NCBI RefSeq assembly: GCF_001618865.1
Contig: NZ_CP015136.1
Coordinates: 3,011,001 to 3,075,000, forward strand
DNA: 64,000 nucleotides
DNA from: Luteitalea pratensis
GTDB taxonomy: Bacteria; Acidobacteriota; Vicinamibacteria; Vicinamibacterales; Vicinamibacteraceae
Direction: 5' to 3'
Part shown: positions 1-15,760 of the stretch, one piece after another
Layout of the letters: each line of letters begins with the position of its first letter
Position numbering within the stretch: the first letter of the stretch is position 1
Notes under the pieces: model-generated
What the model was told of the DNA's origin: nothing
Database searches by the model: none
Seen by the model: only the letters and a program-made list of their open reading frames with translations
Position numbers and translations under genes: made by a program

Positions 1-563
1 TACACGGCCGTCAGCTTCGACTTTTGCTGAACGATTCACGCCGGGTACAGACGAGGTACGATGGCTCACAAAATCGCTTGACCTCGAGCGCGTGGAGTCC
101 GATCATCCCCCCTTGATATCAATGCTGCGGACTGTGTAGGTCTTCAGTGCCAGCCAAAGCGACGGTGCTGTTGGAACCGTTCGCGGCATCGTTGTGTCCG
201 TGGCGCATGCTCCGACCGCGGTGAGAAGCCGCGGCCCCGGAAGGGGGCGTTCTATGCACTGGCCACACCGCCGGCTGGATCCCTGACCCGCGCGACCCGC
301 GAGACTCTGCGGTCGTCTACGCGATCGTGCGCCGCCTCATGGATCGCGGGGGTTGCGGACGCGCGCCGCACTGCCGCCTCCGTCGAACGCTCGCCCGGCT
401 TGTTCGCGCGCATCCGCACGAATCTCGCCGCGCAGCTGCGGTAACCCTCCGTCCCCTCTGGCCTGACATCGGATTGTGGTCGCTCGTCATGCGGATTCCG
501 TGGTTAACGGGCAGTTCGGGCTTCGATCGAGTCGCACCAACGCAGCACTGACAAGGAGGTCGA
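1..563. other. No gene recognised in the first 563 bases
   Basis: Short frames run on both strands but none looks like a protein: they are arginine-rich, lack family motifs and overlap each other. The only clear signal is a strong ribosome-binding site (AAGGAGG, about 553-559) that serves the gene starting at 564. No RNA gene or repeat was recognised. Confidence 0.45.
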
Positions 564-1418
564 ATGGCTGAAACACCAAGGAAGAACGACACGAGATCGT
601 TGGCGGACCGTCTCGTCCCGGATCCGAAGAATCCTCCCGATTTGACGATGCTCCAGGGCTGGCTGGGGGCCTCGTCGGAGGAGAGGCACCGCCGTCTTTA
701 TCTGGACCCGGAAATGTCGCGATCGCTGGAGATCCCCGGCGACGCGATCGTGCACACGCAGGACATTCCTCCTGACGTCAATCCGCTCGGCGGCAGCTGG
801 GTGTGGATCAAGGCTGACGCAGCCATCAAGCAAGGCCCAGGACTGGAGCGCTTGTACGCCCGCTTCCTTCGCGGGCAGATTCAGCAGGACTTCCTTGCGG
901 GCGGGGGCGCAGGAGTCGGTGCGGGAACTGTCGGCGCACCTGGTGGCGGAGCGGCTACGAGCCCCTTGATCTGTCCGCCTCAGACGGTCTTCACCTGTCC
1001 GACGCGGACGGCCTGGTGCCGACCATCGGTGTTCACGATCTGTCCGTCGCAACTGACGATCTGTGCGACTCGTCAGGTCATCTGTCAGGTGACGGCGCCG
1101 GTGCAATGCGCGCCGTCGCTCTCGTTCCAGTGCCCGACGCGGATCTGTCCGTCGGCGGTGGACGCGTGTCCGAGCGCGCCCGGCGGCTGCTGGGACCCGA
1201 CGATCGTGCAGGGAACGATCGTTCAGCAACCGGGTCTCGGACAGGTGGGATTGCAGGGCGGCTTCGGCTTCGATCCGTCAGGTGGGATGGGATTCGGGCC
1301 GGCCGGAGGTGGTTTGGTCGGCGCGGCAGCCTTCGCGACCGGTTGGGCAGCGTGCCGGACCCGTGTGTTCCCCTTGTGCGACCCGTTCACGCGTACGCCG
1401 CTTCTCTGCCCGGTGTAG
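564..1418 (+). CDS. Cys-rich repeat protein with a conserved LxGWLG-type N-terminal domain
   Basis: This is a 284-residue protein with a strong AAGGAGG site about 5 bases before the ATG. Residues about 28-110 (QGWLGASSEE, RLYLDPE, NPLGGSWVWIK) resemble a family of small bacterial hypothetical proteins that I recall but cannot name. Residues 137-209 hold eleven cysteines at a regular spacing of mostly 7 or 8 residues (137, 145, 152, 160, 167, 174, 182, 190, 195, 202, 209), with Thr, Ile, Val, Phe and Pro between them. A Gly-rich stretch follows, then three more cysteines at 264, 272 and 282. No signal peptide is visible. The regular spacing suggests a disulfide- or metal-staked solenoid. A leader-plus-core modified peptide is an alternative, although the N-terminal part is long for a leader. 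No maturation enzyme lies beside it. Function is unknown. Confidence 0.8.
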   Translation: MAETPRKNDTRSLADRLVPDPKNPPDLTMLQGWLGASSEERHRRLYLDPEMSRSLEIPGDAIVHTQDIPPDVNPLGGSWVWIKADAAIKQGPGLERLYARFLRGQIQQDFLAGGGAGVGAGTVGAPGGGAATSPLICPPQTVFTCPTRTAWCRPSVFTICPSQLTICATRQVICQVTAPVQCAPSLSFQCPTRICPSAVDACPSAPGGCWDPTIVQGTIVQQPGLGQVGLQGGFGFDPSGGMGFGPAGGGLVGAAAFATGWAACRTRVFPLCDPFTRTPLLCPV

Positions 1419-1452
1419 GTGGGGCGCGTCACGGGTAAGGTAGTGATCCAGC

Positions 1453-1480
1453 GGCGGCCTGTCGACACTGGCAGGCCGCC
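1453..1480 (+). terminator. Hairpin after the Cys-rich protein gene
   Basis: There is a perfect 9-bp inverted repeat, GGCGGCCTG and CAGGCCGCC, with a 10-base loop, 35 bases after the stop codon of the gene at 564. No T-tract follows, so it is a hairpin of terminator type rather than a canonical intrinsic terminator. Confidence 0.5.
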
Positions 1481-1654
1481 AAGCTGGGCTCACCGACATT
1501 CTGTGCGTTCTCGCGCGAGTTGCCGCCACGCCTACGCCGGCCCGTATGGCCTTTGAGGCGTCGAGCGTCCGTGACAGCCGATATGATCCGCATGACGACC
1601 ACGTCCCGTTCGCAGCGCGATGACCATCGGCTACGGGCTCTCGTTCACGCACGC

Positions 1655-2298: not shown

Positions 2299-4446
2299 CT
2301 AGGGTAGGCGTCGTCTCAGCTCATCAAACCAGCCTTCCACAACAACGGCTTCAAGAGGAGTGCCTCGATCTTCAGCTGCCGGCTTCAGCAACACGAACTG
2401 ATTGCCATCCGGCATCACGTCGAAGCGCCGATAACCCCACAGCGGAGCCATGTAGTCTCCCTGGACTCGTAACCGCGGCTTAGAAACCGTGAGTGCCGGT
2501 CCCTGTCGTGAGGACACTTGCACTTCGAATACCTGTCGGCCATCGTTCGACATGTAGAACAACCGCTTGCCGTCGATCGACCAGACCGGAGACGCGCCGC
2601 CCGTCGTGGACACGGGTTGCCGCTCGGTCATCTGAGGAAAGCGTTCGAGCCACACTTCGTAGCGTCCGGTTCGATCCGACTCGTACGCAATCCACTCGCC
2701 GTTCGGTGACACCGCTCCATTTGCCTCATTGGCAGTGGAGGCCAGTAGTGGCGTTGCCGCCGGATTCCCCGGCGTCGCCAGTAGCAGATCCTGTTCACGG
2801 TAGATGCCATACGAACCAAGGCGCGCCCTCGAAACAATGAGACGTCCATCCGGCAATCGCGCATTTGGCGCATACGTCCATCCGCCGGCGCTCGGTGTCC
2901 ACACCAGCGTCGCCTGACCGGTGCCGTCGGCGCGTTGCGAGTACACCGCAGCCGCGCCACCGCGGATCTGCTCGAACACCAGGGTCTCTCGATCTGCCCA
3001 GAGTGGACGCCCGCTTCGTGTATCAGCTGTGATCGGTGTCATGACACTGCGGCGCGTGTCGTACACCTTTACGCGCGCTGCCGCCCCCGGGTTGGTGCCA
3101 ACCGCGATCTTGTCTCCGGTCGGCGAGATGCGAACAAACGCGTACGGGCCCGGCGGAATGTTGGGGAGTGGCGATTCACGTCCTGCTGCTGTGTCAACGA
3201 GCATCAACGACGATTCGCGCGTAGCGCGACCAGTCACTGCCGCCCCAACCATGTACACAAGCCTTCCGTCGTCCGAAACGCTCATGCGCGCCGGTCCACC
3301 AGGAAAAACAAATGACACTGCCTCGGCGAGCGGCGAAGCATCGCCGATGGGCTGCAAGGCATTCACGTCAAACTTCACCACCCACAACGTGCCGTCCCGG
3401 AGGAAGAGCAAATGCCCGTTCGCCACGTATTGCGCGAAAGGTGCTGGCATCACCGAACGAACTTCTCGGGTATCGGTACTGGCGACAAAAAGTCCACCTT
3501 GAGCCCGAATGCCCGTGAACAATACCCGTTTGCCGTCCGGTAGAAACTGTGGTCGCCCGTGAACGTCGCCTTCGGCGGCCTTGGTGAGCCGTTGCGCAAC
3601 TCCACCGGTGTCGCGCACGATCATCAGCCCCGGCTCAGGCTCCATGGCAAAGACGATGTTGCCGCCGCGGCCCCACGACGCGCCTCTCACAACCCCGAGT
3701 GTGGCGCCCGGCAGTTGGCAAATCGATTCCGCTGTTCCGCCATCGATCGGCACTTTCTTCAGCGTCCGGTTGCGCAGATCGAACGCAAGCAGCGATCGCC
3801 CATCCGGCGAGAGTGTTACGCGCGGATCGATGCCTTCGGTGCCTGGAATGAGCTGTGCGTCAAGACTGTCCAACGATCTGACGTAGAACTGCCTGACGCC
3901 ATTCTTCTCACCGACAAAAACGATTCGACGGCCATCCGGCGTAATTGCCAGTGGATATGGCACGTCCGCAAACTGCACGCCGGACGGCGGCACGAGCGCC
4001 AGGCGGGTCACAGGCGCGTGTAAGGTGGCGCTGCCATCCGGTCGAAGCCACAACCAGACGCCGACGCCCGACGCAAGTGCTGCGGCAAGACTCGCCGCCG
4101 CGACGAGCCACCGCGTTCGTCCTCTGCGCGGAGCCGCTGTTGCTTGTGTCGTTGGCCACGCCGTCGCCAGCTCGGACAGCTCGAACAGCGCGACGGCGAT
4201 ATCAGGAACGCGCGCGCTGACATTCTTTTCCAGGCATCGCTGCACAAGGCGGCGCGCAAGGGGCGGCATGTCGGCGGGCAGTGCGCTCCAGTCGGGTTCG
4301 GTCTTGAGCACCGCCGCGAGCGCTTCCGCGACGTCATCGGCGGGAAACGCGCGTTCACCCGTGAGCATCTCGAATAGTACGCAGCCGAACGCCCAGATAT
4401 CCGATCGTTTGTCTGTCGGACGTCCTTTCGCCTGTTCGGGGCTCAT
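2299..4446 (-). CDS. Ser/Thr kinase-propeller protein, C-terminal part (frameshifted gene)
   Basis: This 715-residue frame opens inside a protein kinase at the APE-like motif MSPEQAKG (SDIWAFGCVLFEML follows). It then has one membrane segment (WLVAAASLAAALASGVGVWLW) and a long TolB/PD40-like beta-propeller with repeated blades of the type SPDGRSLLAF and TPDGRRIVFV. It is the continuation of the frame at 4482-5030. The missing link TSPALTASGVILGTAAYM is readable in this frame upstream of the annotated ATG, so the two halves are one gene separated by a one-base shift. The intact protein would have a cytoplasmic kinase and an extracytoplasmic propeller. Whether the shift is real or a sequencing error cannot be told from here. 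Confidence 0.85.
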   Translation of the reverse strand: MSPEQAKGRPTDKRSDIWAFGCVLFEMLTGERAFPADDVAEALAAVLKTEPDWSALPADMPPLARRLVQRCLEKNVSARVPDIAVALFELSELATAWPTTQATAAPRRGRTRWLVAAASLAAALASGVGVWLWLRPDGSATLHAPVTRLALVPPSGVQFADVPYPLAITPDGRRIVFVGEKNGVRQFYVRSLDSLDAQLIPGTEGIDPRVTLSPDGRSLLAFDLRNRTLKKVPIDGGTAESICQLPGATLGVVRGASWGRGGNIVFAMEPEPGLMIVRDTGGVAQRLTKAAEGDVHGRPQFLPDGKRVLFTGIRAQGGLFVASTDTREVRSVMPAPFAQYVANGHLLFLRDGTLWVVKFDVNALQPIGDASPLAEAVSFVFPGGPARMSVSDDGRLVYMVGAAVTGRATRESSLMLVDTAAGRESPLPNIPPGPYAFVRISPTGDKIAVGTNPGAAARVKVYDTRRSVMTPITADTRSGRPLWADRETLVFEQIRGGAAAVYSQRADGTGQATLVWTPSAGGWTYAPNARLPDGRLIVSRARLGSYGIYREQDLLLATPGNPAATPLLASTANEANGAVSPNGEWIAYESDRTGRYEVWLERFPQMTERQPVSTTGGASPVWSIDGKRLFYMSNDGRQVFEVQVSSRQGPALTVSKPRLRVQGDYMAPLWGYRRFDVMPDGNQFVLLKPAAEDRGTPLEAVVVEGWFDELRRRLP

Positions 4447-4481
4447 GTAGGCGGCCGTGCCGAGAATGACGCCGCTCGCCG

Positions 4482-5030
4482 TCAGCGCAGGACTGGTAAT
4501 CGTCGTCGCACTGGCGACCGAACGCTTGGCGGTGGCGCATCAACTTTGGCCAAACCAAAGTCGAGCACCTTGACGACGCCATCGGCACGAATCTTGATAT
4601 TCGCAGGTTTGAGATCGCGATGGACGATTCCGACGGCGTGCGCCGCGGCGAGCGCGTCGGCGATCTGGCGGGCAATCGGTACCGTCTCGTCAAACGGAAT
4701 CGGGGCGCGCGCAATGCGATCAGCGAGCGTTTCCCCCTCGACCAGCTCGATCACGAGCGCACGGCCGCTGGTGTCTGAAGACGGGTGCCGCTCGACGACG
4801 CCGTAGATTTGCGCGATTGAAGGATGATTGAGTGCAGCGAGTGTCTGAGCCTCGCGGACAAAACGCGCGATCCGATCACTATCGGTCGCGAACGCCTCCG
4901 GCAGGATCTTCAGCGCGACCGAACGACCGAGGTGTGTATCGCGCGCGCGATAGACCTCGCCCATGCCGCCGGACCCGAGGAGCGCCACCACTTCGTAGCA
5001 TCCGAACCGGACGCCAGCGGACAACGTCAT
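4482..5030 (-). CDS. Ser/Thr kinase catalytic N-terminal part (frameshifted gene)
   Basis: I chose the ATG at 5030 (MTLSAGVRFGCYEVV) because the kinase fold starts there; the frame is open further upstream without motif support. The Gly-rich loop LGSGGMGEVYRARD, the lysine in VALKILPE, the catalytic loop HRDLKPAN and the DFG in VLDFGLAK are all present. After FGLAKVDAPP the frame runs out through an Arg-rich nonsense tail (about 4482-4545). The following kinase residues continue one base out of phase in the gene ending at 2299. The gene is divergent from the PEP-mutase/LuxR chimera. Confidence 0.85.
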   Translation of the reverse strand: MTLSAGVRFGCYEVVALLGSGGMGEVYRARDTHLGRSVALKILPEAFATDSDRIARFVREAQTLAALNHPSIAQIYGVVERHPSSDTSGRALVIELVEGETLADRIARAPIPFDETVPIARQIADALAAAHAVGIVHRDLKPANIKIRADGVVKVLDFGLAKVDAPPPSVRSPVRRRLPVLR

Positions 5031-5285
5031 GTTGCGACCGATTCTATGTCTATGTGAGTGGTTCGCCAGACGCTGGGAGTGCAGTCGAGCTGGCGTACTT
5101 AGTCTCAATCGACGAAATCGTCACAGCAGTTCTCGCCGTGCCGCGATCCGGCGACGTCGGGGCATAGGAAGCGTTCGCCGTCGCCGTCGAGAGTCGCTCC
5201 GGAAACTATACATCAGCGATCGACAACGATGGACGTGAGGTTTCTGGAGAAGATTCCCGGCAGGCCGGAGTCGTCTGCGATCGGT

Positions 5286-6158: not shown

Positions 6159-6907
6159 TCAGGAATCTGTGCCGTCCTCGGAACAGTCGGGCTCACGGCC
6201 CTCTTCTGCGACTGACCGGGGATGCACCTCGCGGTCGTGGACGTGCAGAGCCGGCGTTCGGTCGATGAGCAGGCTGAGGAGTTCGGGCCGGCTGTAGTGA
6301 CCGCGCGAGTCCATCAGCTGCTTGCGCCTTTCGATGAGCGTGAAGTCGAGGTCGGCGACGAGCACGCCTTCGCCCGAACGGATTGGCTCGCCGAGCAGCG
6401 TGCCATCGGGCGCCACGATGGCCGTGAAGCACCCGCCGGAGATCGGGCCGATGCTGCTCTCCGTGTCCGTCGCAATCTGCGCCTGCTGATCGGGATCGAG
6501 CCAGGCGGTTGCGCAGACCACGAAGCACGCGGACTCGAGCGCATGCTGCCGGATGTTGATCTCCGTCTGCTCGGCGAACCGAGGGCCGAAGATCGAGCCG
6601 GGGTACATGGCCGAGTGTATCTGCTCCCCGTCCGCCATCATGGCGTAGCGCGCCAATGGGTTGTAGTGCTCCCAGCACGCCAGTTGGCCGATCCTGCCGA
6701 CCTTGCTGTCGACGGCGCGCAGGCCCGAACCATCTCCTGGATGAACGAAAAATACGGGTAGTACGGGACCACCGTCTCCGGGAAGGTGGCAAAGTGCACG
6801 CCACGTCGTCCGAGGTCGGCGATGGTGCGCACCACCTTGTCGATGGTGCCCTCACGGCTGTAGAGCACGGGGCTCAACTGGACGGCCGCTGCCCTTACTC
6901 GCGTCAT
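6159..6907 (-). pseudogene. Nitrilase with internal deletion and frameshift
   Basis: The N-terminal part starts at 6907 ([15 protein letters not shown]) and carries the first catalytic Glu in [14 protein letters not shown]. After SFIQ the frame jumps at about 6740. The continuation, [14 protein letters not shown] then [15 protein letters not shown] with the nucleophile Cys, is in another frame and runs to 6159. In intact nitrilases roughly 80-90 residues lie between these points, including the catalytic Lys (KRRK..PT.HER region). That block is gone. The protein therefore lacks one of the Glu-Lys-Cys triad and is out of frame, so I call it a pseudogene. It is last in a minus-strand cluster with the redoxin, cupin and VOC genes. 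Confidence 0.75.
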
Positions 6908-6942
6908 TGTTCGACTCCTGGCCTCGTAGCCCGCGAACGCCG

Positions 6943-7782
6943 TCAGCCGAACGTGAATGCGAACGCCTCTACGCCGCCGTCGAGGAACTCGATCTCGAAG
7001 GTCCGATCGACGATGAGCCCGGGTTGCCGGACCAGTTGATACAAGCGCTGCTCGATGACCGTGCCGGCGCCGCGGTCGTCGACGTCCACGCCGCGCGCAG
7101 GACCTGGCGGCTGACCGTCGACCGAGACGCGAAAGCGCACCCGGCCATCGCGATGCAGCGGCCCCATGACCAGGTGGACGTCGCGCGCGTGAAATTGGCA
7201 GACGATCCGTCCAGGGGCGCTGCCGAGGATCGTCGGCTGGCTTTCCATCGTCCACTCGCCGTCGAGGGCCCAACGATTGAGATCCAGCCGCGCCGGGACC
7301 TTGTAGGCGCGGCGCTTTGCCAACGACGCGCCGCCCGGCGATGCGAAGCCCTCGCTGCGGTCATGCCCGAGGTAGATCTCGGGAGATTTCAGGCTCGGCC
7401 AATCGGCGGCCAGCTCGAATCCCGTCGCCATGACCGACACGATGCCGCGGTCGTCGCCCGTGGCGCCGGAGGCTCCGAGCAGTCGCTGCATGGCCTTCTC
7501 CGACCGCTCGTACTCGCCCTCGCCGAAGTGGCGGTAGCGGACGCGTCCGCCCGCGTCGAGGAGGTAGAGCGCGGGCCAGTGGTGGTTGTCGAACGCCCGC
7601 CAGAGGACGTAGTGGTTGTCGAGCGCGATCGGGAAGCCGATGTTCATGTGCTGCATCGCGCGACGCACGTTGTCGAGGTCCTTCTCGAAGGCGAACTCGG
7701 GTGTGTGCACGCCGATCACGGCCAGCGTCATCACCGCCGAGCCAAGAAATGTGCGTCGGCCGAAGACGCGTGTCGCTGGCAT
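6943..7782 (-). CDS. DipZ-like thioredoxin-fold protein lacking the CxxC motif
   Basis: This 279-residue protein has a GGAG site 9 bases before the start. From [18 protein letters not shown] (residue about 22) onward it follows the redoxin domain and C-terminal beta domain of DipZ-like thiol-disulfide proteins: [34 protein letters not shown], and [10 protein letters not shown] near the end. The preceding part, which should hold FWTYSCINC-like residues with the CxxC, is replaced by [19 protein letters not shown], a Tat/Sec-like leader. The redox centre is absent, so disulfide exchange is unlikely. It looks like a leader joined to the domain by deletion. It lies 15 bases downstream of the cupin gene in the same direction. 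Confidence 0.75.
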
Positions 7783-7797
7783 GACATCACGCTCCGG

Positions 7798-8226
7798 CTA
7801 CCTGGCCATGACGAGCAGCGGCTTGCCCTTCTCGACGATGTACGTGGCGAGTTCCACGCCGCTGCCGCTGCCGACGTTTTTCGCCGCGTGGACCATACCT
7901 GCAGGAATGAACAGGACGCCGCCGGCCTTGAGGGTCACTGGCGGCTTGCCGTCGATCTGGTACTCCAACGAGCCTTCCAGGACATTGACAATCTCTTCGC
8001 CGGGATGCGAATGCCGGCCAAACGCCACGCCGGCATCCAGCTCGACGCGCACTTGCACGACTTCGCGTCCGGGGACGCCCAGATCGTGCCGTTGAAGGTC
8101 GATTCGCCGGATTCCCTGCTGCGGTGCCTGCGCCACGGACACCGTCACGGCGCTGCCGACGACCACGCCAACCGCGGCAAGGATCGCCACCGCCCAGATG
8201 CGCGCTGTTGTCCCAGGAACGAGCAT
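7798..8226 (-). CDS. Exported cupin-domain protein
   Basis: The ATG at 8226 lies 6 bases after a GGAGGT site; a longer frame runs upstream without such a signal. A signal peptide or anchor (AVAILAAVGVVVGSAVTVSVAQA) is followed by a single small cupin barrel. Motif 1 is visible as GVAFGRHSHPGEEIVNVLEG and motif 2 as VLFIPAGMVHAAKN. The histidines and glutamate expected for metal binding are present. The substrate cannot be told. It is the second gene of the VOC-cupin-redoxin-nitrilase cluster, 58 bases after the VOC gene. Confidence 0.85.
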   Translation of the reverse strand: MLVPGTTARIWAVAILAAVGVVVGSAVTVSVAQAPQQGIRRIDLQRHDLGVPGREVVQVRVELDAGVAFGRHSHPGEEIVNVLEGSLEYQIDGKPPVTLKAGGVLFIPAGMVHAAKNVGSGSGVELATYIVEKGKPLLVMAR

Positions 8227-8284
8227 GGCCTTACCTCCGTGATCCGACTTCAACCTGGCGCGAATCAGGGTGCTCATGACGGCG

Positions 8285-8959
8285 TCACCGCAGGACGGCG
8301 TCGATGTGGCGAGTGCCGGCCGCGGCCGCTTCCTCGGACGTCTTGCCTTCGCCACGCGCGACGATGTAGGCGGCGTACCAATCCGACCAGTGGTGCTTCG
8401 GCGCGGTCGGTTCGAACTGGCCGTGCCCGTTCTCGGCGTCCTTCAGCAGTTCAGTCAGGGTCGCGACGTCGAGGCTGCTGAATCCCCGGCCGGGAAGCCG
8501 TGTCGTGATCTCCTGGAGCAGCCAGCTGTTGCCGTCGGGATCGCTGAACGTTGCATAGGTGTTGTAGGAGTGTGCGTCTGGGTCGCGCCCGGGCAGGCGC
8601 GGGCCCCCGATGCTGGCGAAGTGGAACGGCTCGCTCACGTCGGCGCCACGGCCGATGAGTTCCGTCCGGGCCATCTCCATGTTGGACACGATCAGGTACG
8701 GGTTCTTGCTCGAGCCCGGTTCCGCCGCCGTGATGCCCTTGCCGAAGTGAATCGAGCACGGTGATCCGGGAGGCGTCATCTGCACCCCGCGCCAGTCAGG
8801 CCCGTTGGTGAAGTCGCCATCCATCCGCCACCCCAGGCTCTCGTAGAAACGCTTGGACCGATCGACGTCGGACACCGGAATGACGACGACCTCGAGTTTC
8901 AGATCGACCGTCGCGGCGGTCGGGGCGGCGTCGCCCTTGACCAATTCTGGGCTGCTCAT
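8285..8959 (-). CDS. VOC (glyoxalase/bleomycin-resistance-like) family protein
   Basis: This 224-residue protein has a GGAGAG site before the ATG. The first 150 residues form a vicinal-oxygen-chelate domain (LEVVVIPVSDVDRSKRFYES, TFSDPDGNSWLLQEI). A C-terminal extension (HHWSDWYAAYIVARGEGKTSE) is common in acidobacterial and actinobacterial members and has no assigned role. It is the first gene of a four-gene minus-strand cluster. The substrate is unknown. Confidence 0.85.
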   Translation of the reverse strand: MSSPELVKGDAAPTAATVDLKLEVVVIPVSDVDRSKRFYESLGWRMDGDFTNGPDWRGVQMTPPGSPCSIHFGKGITAAEPGSSKNPYLIVSNMEMARTELIGRGADVSEPFHFASIGGPRLPGRDPDAHSYNTYATFSDPDGNSWLLQEITTRLPGRGFSSLDVATLTELLKDAENGHGQFEPTAPKHHWSDWYAAYIVARGEGKTSEEAAAAGTRHIDAVLR

Positions 8960-10883: not shown

Positions 10884-12230
10884 ATGAGATGCGTACTCAC
10901 ACATTGCCGTCTGCTGTCGTGGCTTCCGCGCAGCATCGTGGCCGTCTCGGTCCTCACCACGACCTGTCTCGACGCTCGCGCAGCGCTCCCGCCAGGAAAT
11001 GCCGTCCAGCAGTGGAATCAGATTGCGGAGGACACGGTGGTGAGCGCCGGCACATTTCAAAACGAAGGTCTGGTCTACATGGCCTACGTTTCGGCAGCCG
11101 TCTACAACGCCGTGACGGCGATCGACGGCTCGTACGAGACGTATCACTTCGACATCGTTGCCGATCCGCGCGCGTCGATCGAAGCGGCGGTCGTGGAGGC
11201 CGCCTACCTCACCCTGCGACATCACTTCCCGGCGCAGGCGGCATCGCTCGATGCCTTGCACGGAGAAGCGCTCGCGCTGATTCCCGAGGATGGCGCCAAA
11301 GACCACGGCCGGGCGATCGGAGCCGCCGCGGCGCAGGCGATCGTCGTGCTTCGTGCCGACGATGGACGGATCACGCCGATAGGCGTGACGTCAGCATTCC
11401 CGACCAAGGAGCCCGGTCCAGGCGTTTGGCGTCTCACGCCGCCAGCGTTCGCCGCGCCTCAGACGCCATGGGTGGGCCAGGTGCAGCCGTTCCTGCTGAG
11501 CAATCCGCGCCAGTTCCGGCCGGCGTCACCGCCTCCACTCGCCGGTCAGCGATGGGTGAAAGAGTTCGAGGAGATCAGGTGGCTCGGGTCGGCCACGAGC
11601 AGTGTTCGAAGCGCCGACGAGACGGCAGTTGCGCGATTCTGGACCGCCAACGTGATCAGGCAGTACAACCGGCTCGGGCGGGAGCTTTCGACGGCCCGAT
11701 CCTTGAGCCTGCTGCAGACTGCACGGCTCCTGGCGATGATCAATGTCGTCGGCGCAGACGCGCAGATCGCCGTGATGCACTGGAAGTACGAATTCCTGTT
11801 CTGGCGACCGGTCACCGCGGTGGATCCCTCGTCGGTGGTCACAGACGGCTTCGGTCCAGTACCGGGCTTTGACGACGGGAACGACCGGACGATCGAGGAA
11901 TTCGGTTGGCGTCCGCTGATCGCCACGCCGAATCATCCTGAGTACCCTGGTGCACACGGGTCGATTACGTCCGCCGTCGCCGAAGTCCTCACTGAATTTC
12001 TTGGGACCGAGCAGATCGAGATCGATATCCGCGGCTTCGACCCGGGCGGGCCACCAGGAAACCTGAATGCCACGCGTCACTTTGTCAGCAGCGATGAGTT
12101 GCGCGACGAGATCGTCGGCGCCCGACTCTGGGCAGGGCTGCACTATCGCGGATCGAGCGAAGCCGGCGTGGACCTCGGACGCCGGGTCGCGCATTACGAT
12201 CTCAATCATGCATTCGGGCCGACGCGATAG
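10884..12230 (+). CDS. Vanadium-dependent haloperoxidase / PAP2 superfamily protein
   Basis: This 448-residue exported protein has an AAGGAG site 9-10 bases before the ATG and a signal peptide ending near ALP. The all-helical PAP2 fold is recognised by the lysine motif in MHWKYEFLFWRPVTAV, the HPEYPGAHGSITSA motif (phosphate/vanadate pocket), and the C-terminal GARLWAGLHYRGSSEAG with Arg and His. These correspond to the vanadate-binding Lys, Gly-His and Arg-His residues of bacterial haloperoxidases. Its role may be halide oxidation or phosphatase-like; the sequence does not decide. Confidence 0.88.
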   Translation: MRCVLTHCRLLSWLPRSIVAVSVLTTTCLDARAALPPGNAVQQWNQIAEDTVVSAGTFQNEGLVYMAYVSAAVYNAVTAIDGSYETYHFDIVADPRASIEAAVVEAAYLTLRHHFPAQAASLDALHGEALALIPEDGAKDHGRAIGAAAAQAIVVLRADDGRITPIGVTSAFPTKEPGPGVWRLTPPAFAAPQTPWVGQVQPFLLSNPRQFRPASPPPLAGQRWVKEFEEIRWLGSATSSVRSADETAVARFWTANVIRQYNRLGRELSTARSLSLLQTARLLAMINVVGADAQIAVMHWKYEFLFWRPVTAVDPSSVVTDGFGPVPGFDDGNDRTIEEFGWRPLIATPNHPEYPGAHGSITSAVAEVLTEFLGTEQIEIDIRGFDPGGPPGNLNATRHFVSSDELRDEIVGARLWAGLHYRGSSEAGVDLGRRVAHYDLNHAFGPTR

Positions 12231-12261
12231 CGAGCACGAAGGGTTAGCGCAAATGCACGCG

Positions 12262-15189
12262 TCAGTGAGCAGGCGAGGGCGAGTCACTACGTCCAGCCGC
12301 GTCGAGGAAGTCGGTCCACAGCGTGATGACGTGCCGCGATTGGTCGGCGGACACGGCATCGGGTACCAGGGCGGCCACGCGCGTGCCATCGCGTGAGACG
12401 GAGAACACGCTCGGCCCCGCATGGTCAACCATCCGCAACGCCGACCAACGACGTGGTGTGCCCGGGACGAAGGCTGCGCTCGTGACGCGGGGCGGCGCCA
12501 GCATGAGCACGTGACTGTCGGCCTGAAAGAAGACGTACGGCGGGCGCCATGCCCACTGGGACGCCGACCCGCCGCCGTCCGACACCTTCCATCGACGTCC
12601 GTCATCGGGAAACGCCCGTACGTAGATCTCCAGTCGGCCTCCAGACTCGTCAGAAGCGTAGGTCACCCATCGTCCATCGTGCGAGAACCGTAGCTGACGC
12701 TCATCGTGGGACGTCTTCAGGAACGGTTCTGGCTCTGACGCACGCAATCCCGAACCGTCCACCTGTAGGGGCACAGTCCAGAGATCCCAGCGGTCGTGCC
12801 CTCCGACATCGAGTTGCATGAACGCCAACCGGCGGGTCCCTGCCGTCTCGCCGATGGATGTCGGATAGCGCAGTACCGCGCGCCTTGGTGGAAGCAGCTC
12901 ATGGCGGGCCGCGCCCCCGTCGGCTGAAACCCAGGCGATGGTGTCAATCGTGCTGAACACGATGAAGCGATCATCGGATGTCCAGACGGGGCCGCCGGTG
13001 GGTATGCCCGTCGTTACCTGGGTCCGGATTCGACGCTGCCAGTCGTACACCCACACATCGTTTCCCAGGGTGAAGGCGATGCGGTTGCCGTCCGACGAGA
13101 GCGCCGGAGCCCGGTAGTCGCCTGGCTCGGGCAGCAAGGCCCTGGTCGAGCCCGAACTCTCCAACCAGTCCAGCCGCGTCTCGAGTTCGCGGCGGTACAG
13201 CAGGATGCCCGTCCTGGATATGTCCATCTCGGCGGACCCCACGGTCCTGTTGTAGGCGATGCCTTCAACCACGCGAACCGGCGAGCCACGGAGTTCGAGT
13301 CGACTCGGATCGAACGGGACAGCAAACAGGGTTCCGGCCCGGATGAACGTGAGGTACCCGTTGCCGTCTGGACCGACCGCGAAGCGCCCGAACGTTGCGC
13401 CCGTCACCAGGGTCTTGCGCTGGCCGTTCGCAAGCGAGAGCACGTCGATGCGGGCGCGATCGAACCAGTCGGGATGCCGATGGCTGGTGAAGATCACGGC
13501 CTTCGCCCCGGGGAGCACCTGCGGCCACCGTTGCGTGTACTCGCCCTCGAGTCGCCCCAGCGGCACGACCGTTCCGCCGCCGGCCGGTACGCGCCCCAGC
13601 GTGCCTGTGGATGTCGCAAGGACGATGGCGTTGTCTTCTCCCCAGCTTCCGCCGCGCAGGCCTCCCGGCGCAGGACCCGGCGGCAACTCACATAACGTCG
13701 TGACCGACCCTCCGTCGAGCGCCACGCGTTTGAGCCGGCCATCCGCCTCGAATGCGACGAACTGGCTGTCCGGCGAGAAGAAGAACGCGGAAGCGCCCTC
13801 GGTGCCTGCAAGTGTGGCCGCCTCGGAGTCTCGCAGTCGACGTGTGAGCAAACGGCGATTGGAGATGACCACCAGACGTTCCCCATTCGGCGAAATCCCC
13901 GCTGAGGGATTGATGGCGAGTTCCATCGACACGTCGGGCCCGAGATCGACGTTCACACGCATGACGGGCGGGCTGGCCAGGACCCGTGCGGATGATTGCC
14001 ACAGCCACCACGTCCCGCCGGTGAGCATCAGCGCAGCGATCACCGCGGCCCAGATCGGCAGATCGGCGCCGAGGCGGCGTTGGCGGAAGGTGCTGTCCGA
14101 TTGGCTGGCAGACAGGCTCTCGTCGAGCTCGAGAATCGCGTCACGGAGGTCACGAGACCGGCGCCCGGGATCCTGCTGAAGGCATCGTCGAAGCAGTTTG
14201 CGGACCGGGTCCGGGACGGCCGCCGGCAACGCCGACCAGTCCGGCCCCCGTTCGAACACGTGTGCCATCGTGTCCGTGGTTGTCTCCGCGTCGAATGGCG
14301 GCGCTCCTGACAGCATCTCGAACACCACGCATCCGAACGCCCACACGTCGGTCCGCCTGTCCACAGCCAGCCCGAGCGCCTGCTCGGGGCTCATATACGC
14401 AGGCGTGCCGAGAATTCGCCCCGCCGCCGTGTCCGTCACCGAGTCGAGGTCAGTCGACACCAACTGACTGTCCGGCTCGGACGCCGTCGATTTCGCTATG
14501 CCGAAGTCAAGGACCTTCGCGCACACCGGCTCGGTGGCGCCGCCTTGCAGGACGATGTTCGCCGGTTTGAGGTCCCGATGGACGATGCCCTTCGCGTGCG
14601 CGGCGTCGAGCGCGTCGGCAATCTGGCGCGCAACCAGCAACGCCCGGGCGACTGGCAACGGGCCTCGCTTGAGCTGCTGGGCGAGTGTGGGTCCTTCCAC
14701 CAGTTCGAGCGCCAGGGCGGTCAGGCCTTCAGTCTCCTCGACACCATAGATCGCACCGATGTGGGGATGATTGAGAGTGGCGAGCAGGCGCGCTTCGCGG
14801 ATCAGCCGAGCGCGACGATCCGGGTCGCCCGTGAAGCGTGGCGGCAGGATCTTGATGGCCGCCTCACGATTCAGTTTGCTGTCCCGGGCGCGATAGACCT
14901 CACCCATGCCGCCTCTGCCGAGCAGGGAGACGATGCGATAGGCGCCAACGGCGCGTTCGAGCATGTGCGATGTGTCGTCCACCGCCGGCGTCGCTGTGGT
15001 GAAGACGGCTGGCGGTATTTCAAGAAAAGCTGCGGACTCCGACGCATACTGCAGCAGCGAGTCCAGCTCGCTTCGCAGGTTCGGTTCGCCAGCGCACGCC
15101 TCTTCCAGGAACGCCTCGCGGTCTCCGGGCGCCCGAGCCAGTGCGGCGTGATACAGGTCCGAGATCTCGTACCGTCGGTCTGGGCCCAT
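12262..15189 (-). CDS. Ser/Thr protein kinase with TolB/PD40-like propeller
   Basis: This is an intact 975-residue protein. An N-terminal helical segment (YHAALARAPGDREAFLEE) is typical of the acidobacterial class. The kinase follows: LGRGGMGEVYRA (about 90-101), Lys113 in AAIKILPP, HRDLKPAN (204-211), DFG (228-230) and TPAYMSPEQA. A membrane helix (LPIWAAVIAALMLTGGTWWLW) leads to about 560 residues of propeller blades such as SPDSQFVAFEADG. The likely arrangement is a cytoplasmic kinase with an outer sensor or scaffold. It is convergent with the haloperoxidase gene, with about 30 bases between their stops. Confidence 0.93.
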   Translation of the reverse strand: MGPDRRYEISDLYHAALARAPGDREAFLEEACAGEPNLRSELDSLLQYASESAAFLEIPPAVFTTATPAVDDTSHMLERAVGAYRIVSLLGRGGMGEVYRARDSKLNREAAIKILPPRFTGDPDRRARLIREARLLATLNHPHIGAIYGVEETEGLTALALELVEGPTLAQQLKRGPLPVARALLVARQIADALDAAHAKGIVHRDLKPANIVLQGGATEPVCAKVLDFGIAKSTASEPDSQLVSTDLDSVTDTAAGRILGTPAYMSPEQALGLAVDRRTDVWAFGCVVFEMLSGAPPFDAETTTDTMAHVFERGPDWSALPAAVPDPVRKLLRRCLQQDPGRRSRDLRDAILELDESLSASQSDSTFRQRRLGADLPIWAAVIAALMLTGGTWWLWQSSARVLASPPVMRVNVDLGPDVSMELAINPSAGISPNGERLVVISNRRLLTRRLRDSEAATLAGTEGASAFFFSPDSQFVAFEADGRLKRVALDGGSVTTLCELPPGPAPGGLRGGSWGEDNAIVLATSTGTLGRVPAGGGTVVPLGRLEGEYTQRWPQVLPGAKAVIFTSHRHPDWFDRARIDVLSLANGQRKTLVTGATFGRFAVGPDGNGYLTFIRAGTLFAVPFDPSRLELRGSPVRVVEGIAYNRTVGSAEMDISRTGILLYRRELETRLDWLESSGSTRALLPEPGDYRAPALSSDGNRIAFTLGNDVWVYDWQRRIRTQVTTGIPTGGPVWTSDDRFIVFSTIDTIAWVSADGGAARHELLPPRRAVLRYPTSIGETAGTRRLAFMQLDVGGHDRWDLWTVPLQVDGSGLRASEPEPFLKTSHDERQLRFSHDGRWVTYASDESGGRLEIYVRAFPDDGRRWKVSDGGGSASQWAWRPPYVFFQADSHVLMLAPPRVTSAAFVPGTPRRWSALRMVDHAGPSVFSVSRDGTRVAALVPDAVSADQSRHVITLWTDFLDAAGRSDSPSPAH

Positions 15190-15319: not shown

Positions 15320-15760
15320 ACATTCGGCACGTGCTTGCGCGAGTAGTCGTCAGCCTGCCCGACGCCGCGCGTGCTTGGGCATGGCCCCCTGCCCAATCCG
15401 CGAGATGGATCGATCCGTTGTCGCAAAATGTACGAACATGCTTACCTGTGGCGGCATCGATCGCGTACAGCCCGTGCCGGCCGAGGTGAACAGCCGCCGA
15501 TCCGCGCCGTCGGCCCAGTACGCAAGGCCACGCCGCCGGTTGCCGACGATGTCGTCGCGCTCGGTGCGGCGAGCGAACCGCCAGCGTTCCTTGCCCGTCG
15601 CTGCATCGAGCGCAATCAGCTGACGCGCCGGCGATGCGGTGTAGTAGAGCACGCCAGCGACAATCAGGTTGTTGGTCTGGAACTCGCGCCCGCCGACGCC
15701 CCCGATGCCGCCAGGAGGCGCGGGGTCAGGTGAGTTGGCGTGCCTGTCGGTCGCACAGGC
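15320..15760 (-). pseudogene. Quinoprotein (PQQ) dehydrogenase fragment
   Basis: REFQTNNLIVAGVLYYTASP, LIALDAATGKERWRF and GLAYWADGADRRLF match the beginning of the propeller of membrane or soluble quinoprotein glucose/alcohol dehydrogenases. After RLFTSAGTG the sense continues in another frame (GLYAIDAATGKHVRTF and ADWAGGHAQ), so there is a frameshift near 15480. Neither the start of the enzyme nor the remaining blades are present. It is about 20% of a normal enzyme. Confidence 0.65.

Follow-up and report, generated by a model that had tools for sequence, protein, structure and literature searches.

In a 64,000-nucleotide stretch of the Luteitalea pratensis genome (NZ_CP015136.1, positions 3,011,001 to 3,075,000; hereafter the window), the plus-strand gene at positions 564-1418 encodes a protein of 284 amino acids in which a leader domain precedes a core of regularly spaced cysteines interleaved with serine and threonine. 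We consider it very likely that this protein is a lanthipeptide-type precursor of class Vb, the LanK/LanY/LanC type, found outside the Actinobacteria and carrying a long thioether-ladder core that would be modified in trans. Class V is divided into Va, with LanX and LanD, and Vb, with LanC (PMC12291118). Cyclization by LanC is established for class Vb, which is defined by its LanK/LanY/LanC-type enzymes (PMC12291118, PMC12328550), and a 2025 review knows class V only from Actinobacteria (PMC12328550).

The gene is the second precursor gene of a lanthipeptide-type cluster located just upstream of the window. In the coordinates of the own-genome locus, L006 (window position equals L006 position minus 15000), the cluster begins with a papain-like C1 peptidase (PF00112; 8607-9614), followed by a paralogous precursor with 37 cysteines ending at 11233, an APH-type, LxmK-like kinase (LanK; 11361-12467; PF01636, E 1.6e-9; NF038156, E 9e-31), a HopA1-like lyase (LanY; 12464-13507; PF17914, E 8e-40) and a zinc LanC-like cyclase (13428-14783; PF05147, E 1e-59). 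The window precursor, which starts at 15564, comes last. There is one paralogue of the precursor in the complete genome of 7.48 Mb, at G000:C1:3005692, 5 kb upstream of the window, and PF17914 occurs there a single time. In gene content the locus has what distinguishes class Vb: a standalone LanK, a standalone LanY, a LanC, and an adjoining precursor with a leader and a Ser/Thr/Cys core. The hallmarks of class Va, LanX and a flavin-dependent cysteine decarboxylase (LanD), were not recognised among the operon's scanned genes.

The window gene looks real because it has a Shine-Dalgarno sequence (AAGGAGG at 553-559, plus strand, read directly 4 nt before the ATG) and a signature of purifying selection relative to its paralogue. 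The ratio of nonsynonymous to synonymous substitution rates (dN/dS) is close to 0.10 for the leader and close to 0.20 for the part of the core that aligns, at a high, near-saturating dS of about 1.75. A promoter and terminator scan gave nothing decisive, and the protein has no family match in Pfam or NCBIfam (up to E 1) or in PHROGs. Its leader comprises a predicted beta-barrel domain (residues 27-91; 642-836) and a helix motif, FLRGQIQQ (residues 101-108; 864-887), and is joined to the core by a Gly/Ala-rich spacer (residues 113-131; 900-956) that is a plausible leader cleavage region. The ladder core runs from Cys137 to Cys209 (972-1190), with 11 cysteines forming 10 consecutive units and a Ser or Thr 2-4 residues after each Cys. 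A preliminary description, made from the sequence of this DNA, had listed these cysteines at residues 137, 145, 152, 160, 167, 174, 182, 190, 195, 202 and 209, and the translation matches the list exactly. The rhythm that it reported, with spacings of 5-8 residues, is not due to chance: when 11 cysteines were placed at random over the same 73 residues 400,000 times, no placement had all its gaps between 5 and 8. The list lacked three cysteines, 264, 272 and 282, each with a Thr before it, which form a short second core block (residues 258-284; 1335-1415) behind a Gly-rich linker (residues 210-257; 1191-1334). The paralogue's core consists of three blocks joined by Gly-rich linkers, and a BLASTP alignment shows sequence conservation (CWDPTIV...FDP) between the first of these and the linker of the window precursor.

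Direct protein searches with the window precursor returned nothing in a collection of genome contigs, nothing convincing in 60 relatives, and no credible match in four congeners. The precursor family was opened up by a leader profile built from two sequences, which led to homologues in the Acidobacteriota genomes G371 and G283; both (G371:C81 and G283:C158) precede kinase, lyase and cyclase genes. When 85,000 species genomes were scanned for the lyase, 13 loci emerged, two of them the G371 and G283 loci again, from Acidobacteriota, Bradyrhizobium, Sphingomonas, Magnetococcales, Limnobacter, a Thermomicrobiaceae metagenome-assembled genome and other Proteobacteria. The Bradyrhizobium carrier (L022) is a cultured strain, its genome not being metagenome-assembled. 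Kinase, lyase and LanC occur together in all 13, with the cyclase clipped by a contig end in L027 and L030, and nine have an upstream precursor with the same leader. Further loci were found in G424 (L047, with a 55-cysteine precursor), G1134 (L060), G1085 (L059), G1165 (L061) and one Deinococcus plasmid, and the order precursor-kinase-lyase-cyclase is found in Acidobacteriota, Proteobacteria, Chloroflexi and Deinococcus. In L059 a peptidase gene again stands ahead of precursor, kinase, lyase and cyclase, in this order. The L059 peptidase shares 53% identity with that of the Luteitalea cluster, and the L059 precursor (L059:4521-7874; 1005 residues, 96 cysteines) is the largest lanthipeptide-type precursor in the set. 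Leader matches were found in 3 of 396 sampled Acidobacteriota genomes and neither of two sampled congeners, in 1 of 251 genomes of the L030 phylum, 2 of 398 of the L031 phylum and 5 of 149 of the G424 class, counts that are not unbiased rates because the samples were centred on carriers. This patchy occurrence suggests horizontal spread of the cassettes.

The cores interleave Ser and Thr with Cys. In the window precursor all 12 short inter-Cys segments contain Ser or Thr, where shuffling would lead one to expect 8.4 such segments (p 0.005), and in 8 of the 12 the first such residue lies 5 positions ahead of the next Cys. Gaps in this protein and its paralogue mostly follow the pattern S/T-x4-5-C, and a spacing of 5 is suited to a lanthionine ring. 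The paralogue has Ser or Thr in 34 of 34 short gaps, against 23.5 expected; the corresponding counts are 20/20 in L022, 31/31 in L026, 50/51 in L047, and 85/88 in the 96-cysteine precursor of L059 (56 expected). Shuffling p-values overstate significance for repeat-rich cores, whose repeat units are not independent, but the window precursor, in which no unit is a copy of another, is the fair case. Other cores are plainly repetitive: (CPPHTPLHG)n in L020, (CHPTLPPA)n in L031 and L032, (CTPTSALGCPSTST)n in L025, (CGGPTQCGGIHTCGATC)n in L023, (CKDVMWTAGCTF)n in L026 and (CPTVVTANPTDC)n in L027. The tails are apparently unrelated in sequence between most loci, yet alike in build.

The preliminary description had offered three guesses for the tail: a disulfide-staked solenoid, a metal-binding spiral, or a modified-peptide core. 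Gene neighbourhood and Ser/Thr-Cys interleaving strongly support the last, and the first two found no support. An unmodified Cys-rich repeat protein of either kind, with the Lan enzymes acting on something else, is in our judgement very unlikely. A regular spacing of 7-8 residues could suit a beta-solenoid, but a precursor stands directly ahead of LanK-LanY-LanC in about fifteen loci, Ser or Thr is present in every short gap, and the tails share only C/T/S/P repeats, unlike a fold-constrained solenoid. A single-sequence structure model of the full-length precursor was uninformative even for the leader (mean pLDDT, the predicted local distance difference test, 34.8), so it cannot count for or against a solenoid tail.

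Between the cyclase gene and the window precursor lies the relic of a papain-like (C1) peptidase, seen by tblastn as two fragments in different frames (window 270-353 and 400-438, plus strand). The fragments match the intact peptidase at L006:8607-9614 with 50% identity over 28 residues (E 1e-7) and 85% over 13 residues (E 4e-4). The position of this relic makes it probable that a peptidase-precursor unit was duplicated, after which purifying selection continued to act on the second precursor, whereas the second peptidase decayed. The same duplication could have left the window gene as a disused spare copy in decay, as its partner peptidase has become and as its distance of 781 bp from the enzyme genes might suggest. 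We think this unlikely, since the reading frame is intact, the ribosome-binding site is good, all short Cys gaps retain Ser or Thr, and the dN/dS values are low.

The suggestion that the N-terminal 110 residues belong to a conserved family has been borne out: eleven leaders align as one conserved domain. AlphaFold2, run on 11 aligned homologues, predicts a small beta barrel, with pLDDT values around 90 over residues 31-90, and behind it a helix at lower confidence. The barrel gave no PDB sequence match and no clear fold match by Foldseek or VIA-align (best E 0.93; best Z 3.7), and the absence of a clear PDB neighbour does not make the fold new. When homologues of the N-terminus were compared by tails and neighbours, as the preliminary description had proposed, most proved to have Cys-rich tails of unrelated sequence and a minority few cysteines. 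The helix motif, [FY][LFM]xGx[ILVM], is present in 19 of 19 LanK/LanY/LanC-linked precursors with a long or short leader, against a chance level of about 1.9% per shuffled sequence. The precursors of L023 and L026 keep the motif and have no barrel, and the leaderless ones (the second frame of L025, L028 and L050) have neither.

In L025 (Magnetococcales) a leader protein (6564-7193) and a leaderless ladder protein of 47 cysteines (7289-8668) occupy separate open reading frames, which may reflect a leader acting in trans or an assembly break. A plasmid of Aliiroseovarius crassostreae (L050:4401-4643) encodes an 80-residue leaderless precursor with three CVSVAFTAGCTF-type repeats directly before kinase, HopA1 and LanC genes. 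On a Nostoc plasmid (L052:1240-4925), four near-identical, Cys-free proteins of 65 residues stand in tandem, with a hypothetical gene and then one for a HopA1 protein behind them; no LanC was seen among the annotated genes shown there.

The same leader family is also found beside other enzymes. In G424, which also carries two LanK/LanY/LanC loci, a precursor with a Thr-rich, 32-cysteine core (L048:8045-8917) stands beside a LanB-type dehydratase (L048:9587-13510; Lant_dehydr_N and C). In L018 a precursor whose core of CPCVCPYP repeats has 15 cysteines and Ser or Thr in only 2 of 13 gaps (1-1578, minus strand) adjoins a leader-binding protein of the thiazole/oxazole-modified microcin (TOMM) type (TIGR03882, above cut-off), and the contig ends before any cyclodehydratase would show. 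The helix motif is missing from both precursors. The leader barrel is therefore common to several phyla and at least three enzyme types of ribosomally synthesized and post-translationally modified peptides (RiPPs), while the helix motif and core composition follow the enzyme. Of the indirect evidence for the cores being enzyme substrates, this pattern is the strongest, although it draws on a single LanB case and a single TOMM case, and we propose that the FLRGQIQQ helix is a docking element for the kinase/lyase/cyclase set. The TOMM neighbour in L018 is also what could be said for a conversion of the cysteines to thiazoles, or for some other non-lanthionine modification. For the Luteitalea protein we regard this as extremely improbable: no TOMM leader-binding or cyclodehydratase protein is present among the scanned open reading frames of its cluster, where LanK, LanY and LanC stand instead.

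The enzymes themselves have conserved active sites. All 15 kinases retain HGDxxxxN and the Asp of DWE, and all 15 lyases retain the equivalents of CaoY R187, K219 and R229, the importance of which was established by mutagenesis (PMC9486802). Both zinc cysteines and the CHG histidine are kept in 13 of 13 full-length cluster cyclases. By sequence, the solved structure of the LxmK-LxmY dehydratase (9dk1) is matched by both the Luteitalea kinase (E 6e-7) and the Luteitalea lyase (E 2.5e-4), and the cyclase matches a LanM, LANCL proteins and NisC, being closest to the LanM C-terminal domain. As an observation on gene structure, a single open reading frame in L023 (9932-12283) joins a HopA1 lyase to a LanC cyclase; similar frames occur in L029, L061 and L049, with both Pfam domains confirmed only in L023.

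Homologous kinases and lyases have been established to carry out phosphorylation and beta-elimination, respectively, and co-occurrence of the two families in diverse contexts has been noted (PMC9486802). We hypothesize that the window precursor uses the enzymes of the upstream cluster in the same way. The LxmK-like kinase would phosphorylate Ser and Thr of the core in trans, the HopA1-like lyase would eliminate the phosphate to leave dehydroalanine or dehydrobutyrine, and the zinc cyclase would add each Cys to the dehydro-residue about 5 positions upstream. In the product roughly 10-11 (methyl)lanthionine rings would follow one another without overlap, the second block would add at most three, and the papain-like peptidase of the operon would probably cut at the Gly-rich spacers.

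Several facts weigh against this interpretation. The support comes from sequence throughout, and it is from sequence that we infer the chemistry, both dehydration and rings. The 781-bp interval and the dead peptidase separate the window precursor from the cyclase gene, so that shared expression is presumed. The residue equivalent to CaoY Y236 is Tyr in 14 of the lyases and Phe in the Luteitalea lyase only. The kinase scores 107.2 bits against an NF038156 equivalog cut-off of 315 bits (three relatives score 83-100 bits), which makes it a homologue of LxmK but not an orthologue. In L027 and L060 the Ser/Thr content of the gaps is not above shuffling (p 0.998 and 0.50); their cysteines come in groups, or paired units, with Ser and Thr inside each group. 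Finally, some precursors with the same leader and enzymes have few cysteines (L029, L030, L049 and L061).

If the ladders are made, it can be asked what they are for. A classical lantibiotic role is less likely because dedicated exporters are scarce and the ladders are protein-sized. This leaves two readings in contention, a protease-resistant stapled polymer and a multi-core precursor. Under the latter, the same enzymes would form the same rings and the ladder would be cut into many peptides of one, two or a few rings, its length serving only to encode many copies. This is possible, if on balance doubtful. Two clusters have a dedicated papain-like peptidase, L023 has a C39-ABC transporter and L049 an S8 peptidase, the paralogue's blocks are separated by linkers, and the L027 precursor consists of separate units of the CPTVVTANPTDC type, with linkers. 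However, the units of the window protein abut within a block, with no spacer and no constant cleavage motif. Moreover, the large open reading frames flanking L020, L021, L022, L026 and L031, inspected by eye and scanned in part, look like housekeeping genes and include no obvious peptidase or exporter; the cassettes of L020, L021, L022 and L031 are short units among such genes. Our guess, held with somewhat less than even confidence, is that the product is a tough, protease-resistant, thioether-stapled polypeptide with a structural or surface role rather than a set of small peptides. More tentatively, we hypothesize a wider group of genetically encoded thioether-ladder proteins with tens of lanthionine rings on chains of several hundred residues, serving as tough structural or surface material and not as small antibiotics. 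They would be built on a portable beta-barrel leader that bacteria combine with LanK/LanY/LanC, LanB or TOMM enzymes, the short helix and the core being the only parts that change.

By gene content, then, the system would be of class Vb type, with a kinase outside the LxmK equivalog, an unnamed leader family and giant cores. It shares with the described class Vb system of SmoA and its cyclase SmoC a separate APH-like kinase, HopA1-like lyase and LanC cyclase and a leader-bearing precursor. It differs in that the described members are small peptides, whereas here the leader has about 110 residues and a predicted fold, the cores contain up to 96 cysteines, the hosts belong to other phyla, and the cyclase resembles the LanM domain. 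Class Va products (lexapeptide, cacaoidin) and thioamitides have a homologous kinase and lyase, with the CaoY residues R187, K219 and R229 kept, but the Luteitalea cluster has a LanC and no recognised LanX or cysteine decarboxylase. The Acidobacteriota lanthipeptides aci (class III) and tha (class II), characterised from coral microbiomes, come from the same phylum, and the Tha precursor also has a leader and a Cys-rich core; their enzymes, however, are LanKC or LanM, and they carry two rings (tha) or seven dehydrations (aci) and no long ladder (PMC13083261).

Proteusin-type (NHLP) RiPP precursors have a very long, folded-looking leader. The leader described here is likewise long, but it has no match to a leader family in Pfam or NCBIfam and is predicted to be a small beta barrel. 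We found no description of ladder precursors of such size in the open-access literature, which does not prove their absence from the literature at large.

Elsewhere in the window, a minus-strand gene for a serine/threonine kinase-beta-propeller protein (2299-5108) is apparently split near the activation segment into frames at 4482-5108 and 2299-4446, and appears to be a pseudogene or to contain a frameshift.

If our interpretation is correct, the LanK/LanY/LanC enzyme set leaves the Actinobacteria, and lanthionine chemistry reaches protein-sized, ring-stapled polymers, with 14, 37, 55 and 96 cysteines in different precursors. The family would also offer an unusually clean handle on leader recognition, in which one leader fold serves three modification systems and a helix motif tracks LanK/LanY/LanC. 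Stapled protein materials would benefit from iterative enzymes that make tens of rings on one chain.
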